The notes under the pieces: model-generated
What the model saw: the letters and a program-made list of their open reading frames with translations, nothing else
Database searches by the model: none
What the model was told of the DNA's origin: nothing
Position numbers and translations under genes: made by a program
IMG/VR virus record: IMGVR_UViG_3300025701_000055
Location: 1 to 23,679 of that record
DNA length: 23,679 nucleotides
Direction: 5' to 3' (one strand)
Source of the DNA: a virus
Part shown: positions 3,821-14,320 of the stretch, piece by piece
Layout: each line of letters opens with the position of its first letter
How positions within the stretch are numbered: the first letter of the stretch is position 1

Positions 3821-4019
3821 GTTTTTACATTTAGTTTTATCGGCATATGTGGTGTTATTAATTTTAGACATACTCCGATCTTATTATCGTTACGACGAAC
3901 ATAAGTTTATGTCATTTGATAAGCCTACAGAGAAATGGTTTGATTTCTTTAAAGATGAACATAAATGGTCACTAGGTACTCTCATAGTGACACTGATATT
4001 AGGGATGTTATTCATATGA
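3813..4019 (+). CDS. Small two-helix membrane protein
   Basis: 68 residues. Hydrophobic helices lie at about residues 5-22 (HLVLSAYVVLLILDIL) and 53-68 (LGTLIVTLILGMLFI), separated by a charged loop of about 30 residues. The N-terminal Lys is weakly positive, so a hairpin with the loop in the cytoplasm or periplasm cannot be decided. It overlaps the preceding gene by 8 bases and the acyl-CoA dehydrogenase by 4 (ATGA). FadE of Escherichia coli is membrane-associated and the phage enzyme lacks that N-terminal segment, so a membrane partner role is conceivable. It could equally be holin-like. No motif decides. Confidence 0.65.
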   Translation: MDKFLHLVLSAYVVLLILDILRSYYRYDEHKFMSFDKPTEKWFDFFKDEHKWSLGTLIVTLILGMLFI

Positions 4020-5869
4020 TAAAAATGATAAAGAAAGTAATGCCTAAAATATCTGATACTGAACGTGCCGCACTTGAATGTGGCACAATCAGTATTGATG
4101 GTGATATATTCAAAGGAAATAAACCAGAAGTACGTAATCATCTTTCTTCTGTGCTCAATACAACCGAACAGAGATTCATCGATATTACTGTGCCTCAGTT
4201 GCTCGAACTTCAGACAGAGCATGGATATACAGAAGATAATAACTTGACACCACCTGTATGGGATTTTCTCAAAAAGAACAAGTTCTTTGCGATGATTATT
4301 CCTGTCGAGTATGGTGGGCTAGGGTTTTCTCCTTCTGCACAAAGTCAAGTTGTCACTAAGATTGCGTCTGCTGGTCATATCGGATTAGCAGTCACAGTAA
4401 TGGTTCCTAACTCTTTAGGTCCAGGTGAACTGTTGATGCACTATGGTACACAAGAACAACGTGACAAATATCTACCGAAACTTTCGTCAGGTGAAATGAT
4501 CCCATGTTTTGGATTGACAGGGTTATATAATGGTTCAGACGCCACAACATTAATCGATAATGCCAAGTCAATAGTCAAAAATGGTAAAGGCACGTATTCA
4601 GTCAATCTTAATAAACGATATATTACGTTAGCCCCTATTGCGGACCTTATCGGGATTGCTGTGAAAGTAGATGGTGAAATCACTTTATTTCTTATAGAAA
4701 GAGACCATCCTGGGCTACAGATTGGAGAAAGACATAATCCACTCGGTCAGCCATTTATGAATGGTACTATCAAAGGGCACATCGAACTCACTGATGAGCA
4801 TATCCTAGGCGGTAAAAAACAACTCGGAAAGGGTTGGCAAATGTTAGTTGAGTGTTTATCGGTTGGTCGTGCGATATCTTTACCTGCATTGGGTACAGCC
4901 GCATCTATCGTATCGGCAGTTGCGTCGGGTGCGTATGCACGTACACGTCAACAGTTCGGAATGCCTATCGCTAAAATGCAAGGCATACAAGAACCATTAG
5001 CAGATATTGCTTATCAGGCATATGTGAATACTGTAACACAAACCACAATCAACGGTGAACTACAAGCAGGTGAATCGCCTAGTGCGTTATCAGCGATGTG
5101 GAAGTATCAGTCAACCGAACGTGGGCGTATTGCTATCAATCATGCAATGGATGTAATGGCAGGTTCTGCGATACAAGAAGGACCTAATAACATTCTTGCT
5201 AATACCTATAAGAGTATGCCTATTGCGATTACTGTAGAAGGTGCGAATATTCTTTCACGTTCTTTAGTCACGTTCGGTGGTGGGCTTATGCGTTCGCACC
5301 CACATCTACGTAACTTGGTCGATTCGATACAAGATGAAAAAACTCTTTCGTTTTTAAAACATCTTTCATTAATGATTGGTCATACTGTGACAAACTTAGG
5401 TAAAGCACTTACCCGTAACGAATATGCATTATTTGCATTTACGAGTAATATGGTATTAACACTGGGTGCTAAGTATAAGCGTTCTGAATATATCAGTTCA
5501 CGTATGGCAGATATATTTTCGATACGTGTAATGCGTAGTGCTATTGACGAAGAACCCGAATCTGTTATTCGTGATTACTCACTGAAAAGATTACACAACG
5601 AAGAACTACAGGCATATAGAGACGTAGAGAATGAGTTACCTTTAGTTGCTGGTTTATTTGTTAGATTAGCACGTAAGATTAACTTTTTTAATACTAAACA
5701 TATCTCAGTAGAAGATAATGAAATGGCGGCTAATAGTATTACGTCTAAATCCACGTTTGTTAATAATATGATTAGTAAGATTCATATTTCAGGCAGACTC
5801 GCACAGTTGATTGACTGTTACACTAACGATACTCATGAACGAGAAGTTCAAGAAGTTGATAGTAAATAA
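4016..5869 (+). CDS. fadE: FadE-like acyl-CoA dehydrogenase (auxiliary metabolic gene)
   Basis: 617 residues from ATG 4016, overlapping the previous stop. FAD-dependent acyl-CoA dehydrogenases oxidise acyl-CoA to trans-2-enoyl-CoA in the first step of fatty-acid beta-oxidation. Stretches close to bacterial FadE are FFAMIIPVEYGGLGFS (90-105), TVMVPNSLGPGELLMHYGT (127-145), NKRYITLAPIADLIG (199-213), CLSVGRAISLPALGT (280-294), the second catalytic-domain region ARTRQQFGMPIAKMQGI (308-324), and PIAITVEGANILSRS (402-416). E408 corresponds to the general-base glutamate. FadE is about 815 residues; this version lacks the long N-terminal membrane region and has a shorter loop before NKRYITL, but it keeps a C-terminal extension of about 190 residues. 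The frame is intact throughout. It probably feeds host lipid catabolism during infection. The family assignment is strong; substrate length is unknown. Confidence 0.93.
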   Translation: MIKMIKKVMPKISDTERAALECGTISIDGDIFKGNKPEVRNHLSSVLNTTEQRFIDITVPQLLELQTEHGYTEDNNLTPPVWDFLKKNKFFAMIIPVEYGGLGFSPSAQSQVVTKIASAGHIGLAVTVMVPNSLGPGELLMHYGTQEQRDKYLPKLSSGEMIPCFGLTGLYNGSDATTLIDNAKSIVKNGKGTYSVNLNKRYITLAPIADLIGIAVKVDGEITLFLIERDHPGLQIGERHNPLGQPFMNGTIKGHIELTDEHILGGKKQLGKGWQMLVECLSVGRAISLPALGTAASIVSAVASGAYARTRQQFGMPIAKMQGIQEPLADIAYQAYVNTVTQTTINGELQAGESPSALSAMWKYQSTERGRIAINHAMDVMAGSAIQEGPNNILANTYKSMPIAITVEGANILSRSLVTFGGGLMRSHPHLRNLVDSIQDEKTLSFLKHLSLMIGHTVTNLGKALTRNEYALFAFTSNMVLTLGAKYKRSEYISSRMADIFSIRVMRSAIDEEPESVIRDYSLKRLHNEELQAYRDVENELPLVAGLFVRLARKINFFNTKHISVEDNEMAANSITSKSTFVNNMISKIHISGRLAQLIDCYTNDTHEREVQEVDSK

Positions 5870-12129: not shown

Positions 12130-12137
12130 TATAAATA
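12130..12137 (+). promoter_or_regulatory. T4-type late promoter
   Basis: TATAAATA, the exact consensus read by the T4 late sigma factor gp55 with the gp45 clamp. It lies directly after a terminator and about 27 bases before the next start codon. No -35 box, as expected for this class. Confidence 0.85.
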
Positions 12138-12164
12138 TAGTCATAAGTTTTTAACGAGATGGTT

Positions 12165-13100
12165 ATGGCTAATCTAGCAGGAAGAGAAATATACAAATAC
12201 GCTTTTCGTGTCGAAGTATTCATAAAGAAATACACGACTAAAGACCCGTTCACATTGGCGAATGGTAAGAAGGCTACTTTTGTTCCTAGCGAAGATGTTA
12301 TCAAAGCATTAAAGAATCAACAAGCAACAACTAAGTTAGAGTTATTATCAGAAGACGGTAAGACATACAAGTTTAAAGACTTGATGAAGACTGGCGAGTT
12401 TGGTGGTAAAGGTGCGGGCGGTTCGACTATCAAAGAAGATAGAGAACTTGCATCATTACGTCAACAACTAGCACAGATTAAAAAAGATACTGCTAGTGCT
12501 ACTGTTCCTGTCAAAGTAGGGCGTGAAATATATCATGTCGAAGATGCCGAATCTACACCCGGAACACCAAAGTCAGACTTTCACTTACTTGATGGTAATG
12601 GAAAAGAATGTGTTTGGATATCACACAAAGATGGTAGTAGACCACGAGACTTTCAACAGTGGGGCGGTATCTCACAACGTAAAGAACCAAAGATATTTAA
12701 TCACAAAGAAACACAAAAGTTTGTGTCTGACTTGAAAGAAATATTTCCTGATGGATTGCCTAGAGCAACATCATTGCATCGCAGAATAAAAGATAAGAAA
12801 CTAAAAATGTTATCAGTCTATGGTAACGAATATGACACAAATAGGTTGTCAAGGCAGAATACTTCTGTTATGATACAAGGGCCAGTTAACTTGGTGAATA
12901 AAGGTTCTTATTATGTTTTCGAATCAAATCATGTACACTATAATGGTGAATCTGTTGATGATGGTGGATTTGAGCCTGTATTCATGGCTATCTACAAAGG
13001 TGATAGAAGTGATGCTGGTGTCAAGGGTACACGTATCGTAATCATGCCTATTGATGGGCGTAAATCCAAAGAGTTTAACGAAGATAAGGTGATTAAATAG
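12165..13100 (+). CDS. Conserved phage protein, possible PD-(D/E)XK-like nuclease
   Basis: 311 residues from ATG 12165 (MANLAGREIYKYAFRVEVFI). An upstream ATG at 12159 has no room for a ribosome site, whereas ACGAGA is well placed for 12165. The first 130 residues are basic and partly coiled (RELASLRQQLAQIKK). The second part has TPKSDFHLLDGNGKECVWIS followed by HKDG and FQQWGGIS; this resembles the P-x-x-D ... (S/E)xK core of divergent phage PD-(D/E)XK nucleases, with Ser-His-Lys at the ExK position. A beta-rich C-terminal domain follows. First gene after a late promoter, and its TAG overlaps the GTG of the ligase-like gene. Relatives occur in T4-like marine phages, from memory. The nuclease call is tentative. 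Confidence 0.7.
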   Translation: MANLAGREIYKYAFRVEVFIKKYTTKDPFTLANGKKATFVPSEDVIKALKNQQATTKLELLSEDGKTYKFKDLMKTGEFGGKGAGGSTIKEDRELASLRQQLAQIKKDTASATVPVKVGREIYHVEDAESTPGTPKSDFHLLDGNGKECVWISHKDGSRPRDFQQWGGISQRKEPKIFNHKETQKFVSDLKEIFPDGLPRATSLHRRIKDKKLKMLSVYGNEYDTNRLSRQNTSVMIQGPVNLVNKGSYYVFESNHVHYNGESVDDGGFEPVFMAIYKGDRSDAGVKGTRIVIMPIDGRKSKEFNEDKVIK

Positions 13101-14320
13101 TGAACTTTTCAGAGTTTATCACAGAACAAAAAAATACGCATATGACACATCTAGAAGATAAAGTTCTTTATGGTGGTGTCGATGGTACACGTCAAGCAAT
13201 CTTTGCGTTACGTGATATGCGTGATATGCTTGCAGGTAAAAAAGCAAGTAAAGTCTCAGTCAAATGGGATGGTGCACCTGCTATTTTTGCGGGCACTGAT
13301 CCACGAGACGGCAAGTTCTTTGTGGCGAAGAAAGGTATCTTTAATAAGAATCCCAAAGTATATAAGACTAATCAAGAAATCGATGACGATACATCGGGTG
13401 ACTTGGCAGATAAACTTAAAGATGCATTGAAGTATCTACCTGAACTCGGTATTAAAGGTGTGATTCAAGGTGACTTCTTATTCGGTAAAGGCGATGTATC
13501 TAAAAAGAAAATAAATGGTGAGTCATTTGTGACTTTTCATCCAAATACGATTGTATATGCAGTTCCTGTTAGTCAAGCCAAAGAGATTATGAGCGCAAAA
13601 ATCGGTATTGTATGGCACACTAAATATACAGGTAACAGTTTTGAAACTATGAAAGCAGATTATGGCGTCAATGTTTCGAAGTTAAAAAAATCTAAAAACG
13701 TTTGGTCACAAGATGCTATGTTGCGTGATGTGACCAATGCAACTATGACTAAAAAAGAAACGGAGCAAGTGAATGAATATCTTTCAAAGATTGGCAAACT
13801 TTTTAACCAAACTTCTGGGACTACACTCAGAACCCTCGAATCAAACCAAGAACTCGCAAAACTCATCGAGCAGTTCAACAACACCTACGTCAGAAAAGGC
13901 GAAGTCGTCGGCAACACCGAAGCGCACACGAAAAAACTCATCAAATGGATCAGCGACCGCTACCAAAAAGAAATCGACAAGCGCAAAACCGAAAGGGGCA
14001 AGCAAGCCCAAGAAGCCAAGCGTAAAAAAATCCTCGACTTCTTCAGCGAAGAAAACAAAGTAAATCTTGCAAGAATGTTTGAGATGCAAAAACTTATGGT
14101 TTTAGCTAAACTCAAACTTATAAATAAACTTAATAGATTAAGTAATCTTGAAACTTTTGTTAAAACTAGCAAGGGTTTCAAGACTACTGGTCAAGAAGGT
14201 TATGTGGCAATAGACACATTTGGTGGTGATGCGGTGAAACTGGTTGACCGTATGGAGTTTTCATACAACAACTTTTCGCCAGATATTGTTAAAGGATGGG
14301 ATAAACCAACGAGGAACTAA
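13100..14320 (+). CDS. Divergent KxDG nucleotidyltransferase/ligase-like protein with capsid-targeting-like N-terminus
   Basis: 406 residues from GTG 13100. Ligase-superfamily motifs appear in order: motif I KWDG at 55-58 (K55 the would-be adenylated lysine), a GVIQGDFLFG stretch at 120-129 resembling motif III, motif IV EGYV at 366-369 and motif V VKLVDR at 379-384. That is the pattern of ATP-dependent DNA/RNA ligases. The N-terminus MNFSEFITE resembles the T4 capsid-targeting sequence MKTYQEFIAE with an I-x-E protease site. Residues 226-320 are a charged helical insert whose DNA also encodes another protein (13773-14063), and there the codons switch to almost purely C/A/G endings. May belong to the family listed as DUF6267. 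Ligase activity is an inference. Confidence 0.8.
   Translation: MNFSEFITEQKNTHMTHLEDKVLYGGVDGTRQAIFALRDMRDMLAGKKASKVSVKWDGAPAIFAGTDPRDGKFFVAKKGIFNKNPKVYKTNQEIDDDTSGDLADKLKDALKYLPELGIKGVIQGDFLFGKGDVSKKKINGESFVTFHPNTIVYAVPVSQAKEIMSAKIGIVWHTKYTGNSFETMKADYGVNVSKLKKSKNVWSQDAMLRDVTNATMTKKETEQVNEYLSKIGKLFNQTSGTTLRTLESNQELAKLIEQFNNTYVRKGEVVGNTEAHTKKLIKWISDRYQKEIDKRKTERGKQAQEAKRKKILDFFSEENKVNLARMFEMQKLMVLAKLKLINKLNRLSNLETFVKTSKGFKTTGQEGYVAIDTFGGDAVKLVDRMEFSYNNFSPDIVKGWDKPTRN
13773..14063 (+). CDS. Overprinted S/T/P/K-rich basic protein in the +1 frame of the ligase-like gene
   Basis: 96 codons from ATG 13773 to TAA 14061-14063, wholly inside the ligase-like gene in the +1 frame. CGGAG seven bases before the ATG is a proper ribosome site. 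The N-terminus MNIFQRLANFLTKLLGLHSE is an amphipathic helix. The rest is disordered and built of Ser, Thr, Pro, Ala, Lys and Asn, with many Lys-Pro and Ser-Ala-Lys steps as in linker-histone tails. In the overlap the host frame almost never uses T at codon position 3, although T is the favourite elsewhere. T there would put hydrophobic residues into this frame, so selection on this frame is likely. Possible roles are DNA binding or condensation in the head, or membrane interaction. Confidence 0.7.
   Translation: MNIFQRLANFLTKLLGLHSEPSNQTKNSQNSSSSSTTPTSEKAKSSATPKRTRKNSSNGSATATKKKSTSAKPKGASKPKKPSVKKSSTSSAKKTK

Follow-up and report, generated by a model that had tools for sequence, protein, structure and literature searches.

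Evidence that a DUF6267 gene of uncultured T4-like phages carries an overprinted +1-frame gene

A virus record of 23,679 bases, analysed here at its full length and called the window, carries a ligase-like gene (13100-14320, plus strand) that includes, wholly inside it and in its +1 frame, a second open reading frame (ORF) of 96 codons (13773-14063, plus strand). The question is whether this inner ORF is a gene or merely a by-product of the sequence that encodes the outer protein. The comparison of relatives described below indicates that 13773-14063 is very likely a genuine, selected protein-coding gene overprinted on the older outer gene, in the absence of any expression data.

The outer gene belongs to the DUF6267 family (Pfam PF19782, E 7e-106; phrog_455, E 9e-104) and is taken as ancestral. 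It encodes 406 aa with a KWDGAP motif, in which K55, D57, A59, and P60 are invariant. T4-like phages with a DUF6267 gene number in the hundreds; they infect cyanobacteria, Pelagibacter, Methylophilales, and others, and include cultured phages and relatives without the inner ORF. The isolate nearest to the window is Phage C48C1 (Kyanoviridae, 156 kb), whose outer protein is 68% identical and whose record has no extra annotation within its DUF6267 gene. DUF6267 is not mentioned in any paper of the literature searched. The outer gene is flanked by genes for a cytidyltransferase-like protein and for a 313-aa protein of unknown function. AlphaFold models the outer protein with only moderate confidence (mean pLDDT 69), and poorly over its last 60 residues. 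With this model, VIA-align returned mainly RNA/DNA ligases, with Z of only about 5-6; Foldseek gave E > 0.4, and the comparison with the sequences of solved structures gave chance-level matches only. A weak resemblance of the DUF6267 fold to RNA/DNA ligases is thus a prediction of the model. In the same model, the overlap corresponds to a block of predicted helices (218-312) that follows the ligase-like core and precedes the last conserved motif. In all classes of relatives defined below, the variability of the outer protein is nearly doubled in this block, which appears to be a tolerant place for a second frame.

The inner ORF has an ATG at 13773-13775 and a stop codon at 14061-14063. A Shine-Dalgarno-like CGGAG (13761-13765) lies 7 nt before the ATG and is made from a Thr ACG and a Glu GAG codon of the outer gene. 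The earlier note, made before any database search, had given this start, ribosome site, stop, frame, and length of 96 codons, and all of them held. An in-frame TGA directly 5' of the ATG (13770-13772), where many relatives also have TGA or TAA, means that the inner ORF cannot begin further upstream. With the outer protein held fixed and its codons sampled from elsewhere in the gene, the +1 frame stayed open for this length in 166/20000 trials (p = 0.008). Openness alone is therefore weak evidence, and it was dropped as the main argument. Opposite the overlap, an antisense ORF of 82 codons (13841-14089, minus strand) was observed as a mechanical by-product of C-ending codons.

The codon usage of the outer gene is far more unusual. 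In the outer codons at 13826-14062, the third base is T (T3) in 1/79 codons, against 26.1 +/- 3.3 in the null (minimum 15 in 20,000 trials), and C (C3) in 41/79, against 7.9 +/- 2.4 (maximum 18). Among the ORFs scanned in the window, T3 is at least 19% in every other 79-codon stretch. The earlier note had described a loss of T-ending codons over the whole overlap; the shift held, with its onset refined to about 16 codons after the ATG. T-ending codons are kept in the first ~16 codons because the +1 frame there encodes a hydrophobic helix. The outer gene retains T at sites where a hydrophobic residue is needed in the inner protein and has lost it at the others.

Relatives were collected by three host-gene scans and one inner-protein scan of IMG/VR, together with annotated phages. 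The sample consists of 268 loci with 167 distinct full outer genes, the host-gene scans being drawn from 80-best lists. Representatives at <= 75% codon identity (n=118) were divided by aligned site into three classes. Class a (27/118) has a +1 ORF of 80-99 codons and a strong codon shift. Class b (40/118) has ORFs of 67-87 codons and a slight shift. Class c (51/118), the ORF-less relatives, has a +1 stop within 60 codons, in most cases within 30, and no such shift. The inner ORF is absent from Phage C48C1, DLP_6, Melnitz, HTVC008M, S-CAM9, and many contigs; it is restricted to part of the DUF6267 family. Over the tail, class a has a T3 fraction of 0.075, class b of 0.287, and class c of 0.307; outside the overlap, the fraction is 0.38-0.41 in all three. 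In class a, C and G are the third base at 0.505 and 0.113 of tail codons, compared with 0.173 for C, 0.139 for G, and 0.382 for T outside the overlap; C is at 0.160 in the tail region of class c. G3 does not rise, so the shift is not a G+C effect.

Some relatives do not fit neatly into presence or absence. Seven loci (L030, L045, L048, L055, L080, L095, and L108) and similar ones are intermediate: they have the ribosome site, a MNIYRKLVNSLTKS-like start, and a hydrophobic tail, with hardly any codon shift. They could be young, decaying, or helix-only versions of the gene. Others, such as L013, L038, and L078, are decayed copies with early stops and partly shifted codons. In the original record of S-PM2 (L085, AJ630128, 4001-5207), the DUF6267 gene has a truncated CDS and its match is split in two; a second S-PM2 record (LN828717) matches in one piece, and the split in AJ630128 is likely a sequencing error.

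The 96-aa protein itself has no match by tblastn at E <= 1 in 50,697 phage records, so that no isolate with the inner gene was identified there, belongs to no PHROG or Pfam family, and was not found in 84,980 species genomes with a single-sequence query. The inner-protein search of IMG/VR, which used one peptide pattern and is not exhaustive, found 55 loci, all of which also have the DUF6267 gene; within that scope, no free-standing homologue was found outside the DUF6267 locus.

The start of the inner gene is conserved where the ORF is present. An ATG is present in all 27 class a representatives. It occupies one shared position in 25 and lies in frame 2-3 codons upstream in L244 and L025. A GGAG, GAGG, or AGGA site is found in 21/27 of class a and 14/51 of class c. 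The Thr codon of the ribosome site is ACG in 18/27 ORF-bearing and 6/51 ORF-less relatives (p 1e-6), and the Glu codon is GAG in 17/20 and 6/16, respectively (p 0.005).

The inner protein consists of a conserved amphipathic helix (MNIFRKLVNFLTK) followed by a disordered S/T/P/A/K tail. In the window, the helix (MNIFQRLANFLTKLLGL, 13773-13823, plus strand) is supported by AlphaFold, the hydrophobic moment, and synonymous choices. AlphaFold places it at residues 3-17, with pLDDT of about 83 for residues 1-10, and predicts no secondary structure after it. The mean hydrophobic moment is 0.53 in class a and 0.37 in the corresponding ORF-less frames (p 2.5e-6). Outer codons are chosen where they shape this helix: Leu is CTT in 25/27 ORF-bearing versus 12/51 ORF-less relatives (p 2e-9), Phe is TTT in 26/27 versus 29/51, and Asn is AAC in 24/27 versus 13/45. 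The helix is the most position-constrained part of the inner protein.

The end of the inner ORF provides a further comparison within class a, in which the +1 stop comes after 80-87 codons in 16 representatives and after 96-99 codons in 11. Over outer codons 312-319, T3 is 0/88 in the longer forms and 51/128 in the shorter ones (p = 1.6e-14). The extension to 96-99 codons is cleaned of T as strictly as the remaining tail. The long forms sit in two separate parts of the tree, the clade of the window and L264/L268. Independent contrasts on well-supported branches are nearly all in the same direction, with 2 and 5 pairs and tree p-values > 0.05. The C-for-T shift ends at the +1 stop, which disfavours a cause purely in RNA, in composition, or in the outer protein.

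These data bear on two explanations without a second gene. The first is that the codon shift has a role in the RNA or in how the outer gene is translated, as a C-rich, G-poor stretch (a Rho-loading site), as weak mRNA structure, or as slow codons, and that the long +1 ORF is a by-product, because C-ending outer codons cannot make +1 stops. In its favour, C3-rich codons alone open the +1 frame, two relatives (L002 and L025) open even the other frame, and the antisense ORF lies opposite the overlap. Against it, the shift stops at a +1 stop whose place differs between genomes, the first 16 codons keep T at the sites that give Phe and Leu in the helix, the rare ACG-GAG codons build a ribosome site at the right distance, and ORF-less relatives with the same outer protein show no shift. 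This explanation is very unlikely. The second is that the overlap is a patch recombined from a phage with C-rich codon usage. Phage genomes are mosaic, and the trait is patchy on the tree. However, G3 does not rise along with C3, the outer protein in the patch remains typical of its family, and the borders of the shift track the +1 ORF at two stop positions (80-87 and 96-99 codons), which contradicts a patch. It can be all but excluded.

Selection on the tail is of a different kind from that on the helix. The tail of the window protein (13824-14060, plus strand) is 85% S/T/P/A/K/R and 1% hydrophobic, and the whole protein has a net charge of +20. Over tail residues 19-87, the hydrophobic fraction is 0.08 in ORF-bearing and 0.36 in ORF-less relatives, and the mean number of stops is 0.11 and 3.67. 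The mean net charge is +12.4 versus +11.5, and the +1 frames of ORF-less relatives encode as many lysines. Selection for positive charge is therefore dropped as an argument: the charge comes passively, because the outer helices are Lys-rich. Selection changed the hydrophobicity and the stops of the tail, not its charge. A histone-H1-like DNA-binding tail would be Lys/Ala/Pro-rich, disordered, and selected for positive charge; the tail here is disordered and the protein positively charged, but ORF-less frames are as positive and the charge gives no sign of selection. The composition data argue for a soluble disordered tail. Binding to nucleic acid is unproven, and that role is weakened because the charge is inherited from the outer frame.

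Synonymous change gives a consistent picture. In disjoint pairs, the synonymous difference in the overlap and outside it is 0.126 versus 0.199 in class a, 0.169 versus 0.195 in class b, and 0.379 versus 0.338 in class c. Strict residue-by-residue conservation, given the shifted composition, was also considered and gained little support: the excess of synonymous identity over composition in class a is 1.25 in the overlap and 1.22 outside (class c, 1.08 and 1.19). The exact tail residues are poorly conserved and drift fast within the S/T/P/A/K palette, and several of the closest pairs show greater synonymous change inside the overlap than outside. Selection therefore acts on the composition of the tail and not on a fixed sequence. 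It is mostly compositional in the tail and positional in the start and the helix. At the sequence level, it is shown that the start, ribosome site, helix, and tail composition were selected through synonymous sites of the outer gene.

Four features looked for in an overprinted gene are thus present. The ORF is complete, with a start, a ribosome site, and a stop inside a gene in another frame; the codon signature follows the borders of the inner frame; the inner frame is confined to part of the DUF6267 family; and synonymous change is reduced in the overlap and not in ORF-less relatives, although the reduction beyond composition is modest. The earlier note had inferred a real overprinted protein, to be refuted by homologues that keep the outer frame with stops in the +1 frame, or by no drop in synonymous substitution. 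Both tests were run, and the inference survived and is supported. Relatives with +1 stops exist and are exactly those without the codon shift, and synonymous change drops in the overlap for ORF-bearing pairs and not for ORF-less pairs. The proposed selection for a disordered S/T/P/A/K product held for the loss of hydrophobic residues and of stops. The protein is basic, as had been suggested, but its basicity is inherited from the outer frame. A DNA- or membrane-binding role, suggested at the same time, is still a guess.

As to its origin, the inner gene would have arisen de novo in a clade of uncultured T4-like phages and may then have been lost, or spread by recombination, several times. The codon usage of the outer gene is ordinary where the inner gene is absent. 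The ORF trait is patchy on the host tree, with 13 changes, on a weakly resolved tree built without the overlap columns. Losses are suggested because the relics L013, L038, and L078 combine early stops with partly shifted codons. Much of the similarity between inner proteins is dictated by the outer protein, so that by itself it is no proof of common origin. The shared start and ribosome sites speak for a single origin followed by losses or transfer, without ruling out repeated origin.

The function of the product can only be inferred. The inner protein may be translated from the mRNA of the outer gene by internal initiation at CGGAG-N7-ATG. The product would be a two-part accessory protein, with a 15-residue amphipathic helix and a disordered S/T/P/A/K tail of 70-80 residues. 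The helix would dock on one partner, which may be a phage protein, a host protein, or a membrane, and the soluble polycationic tail would contact nucleic acid or another polyanion. Such a helix-docked accessory protein is the most likely working model, but its function is unproven and we lean slightly against the model being correct as a whole. A bolder reading, which we also rate a little short of an even chance, is that the gene was born recently in a large dsDNA phage lineage, was lost repeatedly, and encodes a disordered protein, anchored by its helix, whose dedicated new function would be host takeover or counter-defence. Full-length, extended, intermediate, and decayed copies would then be found at one site, with the outer codons recording each state.

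Three other readings accept the gene and differ in what its product does. It is possible, though not likely, that only the helix matters and that the tail is merely soluble and harmless, since the outer gene sets the next +1 stop. The helix is the most position-constrained part, and the tail residues vary freely within S/T/P/A/K with an inherited charge. On the other hand, a useless tail could easily be cut back by new stops, but the ORF still runs for 80-99 codons in 27 representatives, and the 96-99 extension is as strictly T-free as the rest. Action on the membrane is unlikely. Here, the helix would insert in the host inner membrane as an auxiliary lysis or exclusion factor, with the tail on anionic lipids or the cell wall. 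A helix of high hydrophobic moment beside a cationic tail fits this reading, and Rz1 is an example of a known overprinted phage gene that acts in lysis (PMC6139136, PMC5295617). However, the window protein has no membrane-spanning stretch, lipobox, or cysteine, and the locus is not a lysis cassette. A fast-evolving inhibitor of host defence or of a host factor is likewise improbable. The patchy presence (13 state changes) and the fast change among the closest pairs speak for it, and small, diverse proteins with anti-restriction activity have a precedent in the internal proteins of T4 (PMC3012670); the lack of a PHROG or Pfam family match speaks against it. The helix-docked accessory protein remains the preferred working model.

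A separate feature lies just 3' of the overprint. The sequence TATAAATA, which we take to be the T4 late promoter core, is at 14119-14126 (plus strand), in outer codons 339-342. It is kept in 113/118 relatives, with or without the overprint, and its Ile codon is ATA in 117/118. It would drive downstream genes and not the overprint. Its presence partly explains why synonymous conservation is raised toward the end of the outer gene. In that region, at 14216-14275 (plus strand), all classes show another run of synonymous codons that are strongly kept: CTT GGT GGT GAT ... GTT GAT ... AAC TTT, with the two GGT codons kept in 112/118 and 116/118 and AAC in 114/118. More TATAAATA sites are at 12130, 15827, 18858, and 23589, all on the plus strand, giving five in the window against 2.0 expected; three are 20-40 bases before the gene starts at 12159, 15863, and 18900. 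Late expression of the overprint from the site at 12130 was considered and dropped, as relatives have not conserved this site ahead of the outer gene.

Two observations concern the surrounding genes. The proteins starting at 13100, 14323, 14778, 15863, and 16641 (plus strand) begin with peptides resembling T4 capsid-targeting peptides (MNFSEFITE, MADPLSFKDFLA, MFPSFKQYLVEE, VKSFSELSE, and MIRFREYVE), several with a hydrophobic-x-Glu site. It is possible, as an inference from sequence alone, that these neighbours, including the ligase-like and cytidyltransferase-like proteins, are packaged internal head proteins. The window also carries a gene for a 634-aa acyl-CoA dehydrogenase (3965-5869, plus strand; Pfam Acyl-CoA_dh_N/M/1). 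An acyl-CoA dehydrogenase is not known as a common auxiliary metabolic gene of T4-like phages.

Standard gene callers skip nested genes. At this locus, the comparison of relatives makes a very clear case for overprinting in a large tailed phage: the inner gene is present in dozens of genomes and missing from dozens of others, it stops at either of two positions, and a codon signature follows each. As a natural set of gains and losses for studying the birth of new genes, the locus allows tests of how a protein evolves within an existing gene, of whether its disorder results from selection or mere inheritance, and of how fast codon usage returns to normal once the gene is lost. The same contrast across relatives, with T3 depletion confined to a +1 ORF, could be applied to all phage families to find further cases.

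Among known systems, lambda Rz1 in Rz is likewise a whole phage gene nested in the +1 frame, and disorder-promoting residues abound in its product (PMC6139136, PMC5295617). The two products, an outer-membrane lipoprotein (Rz1) and an inner-membrane protein (Rz), belong to one complex, whereas the outer gene here is the ligase-like DUF6267. An embedded o-spanin of the Rz1 type was rejected, as the window protein has no lipobox cysteine, and no cysteine at all; the spanin reading also fails in that DUF6267 is not an inner-membrane i-spanin. T4 internal head proteins are, like the inner protein, small, lysine-bearing, and variable proteins of T4-like phages, and their lysines contact packaged DNA (PMC3012670). 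The inner protein differs in having an amphipathic helix first and disorder after it. Judged only by its sequence, it was rejected as such a protein: it has no N-terminal capsid-targeting motif, which would be a peptide of 10-20 residues cut after Glu by the prohead protease, its first Glu is residue 20, and the residues before it are unlike the targeting-like peptides of the neighbours.

The phiX174-type genes of Microviridae (E, K, and part of A) also arose de novo by overprinting, and such genes have been predicted from codon usage (reviewed in PMC8227390). They belong to genomes of a few kb under packing pressure, whereas the inner gene is in a large T4-like genome in which space is no obvious limit. 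Genes that arose de novo by overprinting in eukaryotic viruses and were identified through codon usage, such as deltaretrovirus Rex, share with it a restricted range, a disordered product, and a codon-usage signature (PMC3744397, PMC8227390), and disorder is expected in the products of overprinted genes (PMC8227390). In those viruses, the new frame is detected by odd codon usage of its own; here, it is the old frame whose codons have been rewritten, within precise bounds, and the ORF-less relatives provide controls. Nested +1 genes are known in phages, and the inner gene is a new gene family of this known kind in an unusually informative setting.
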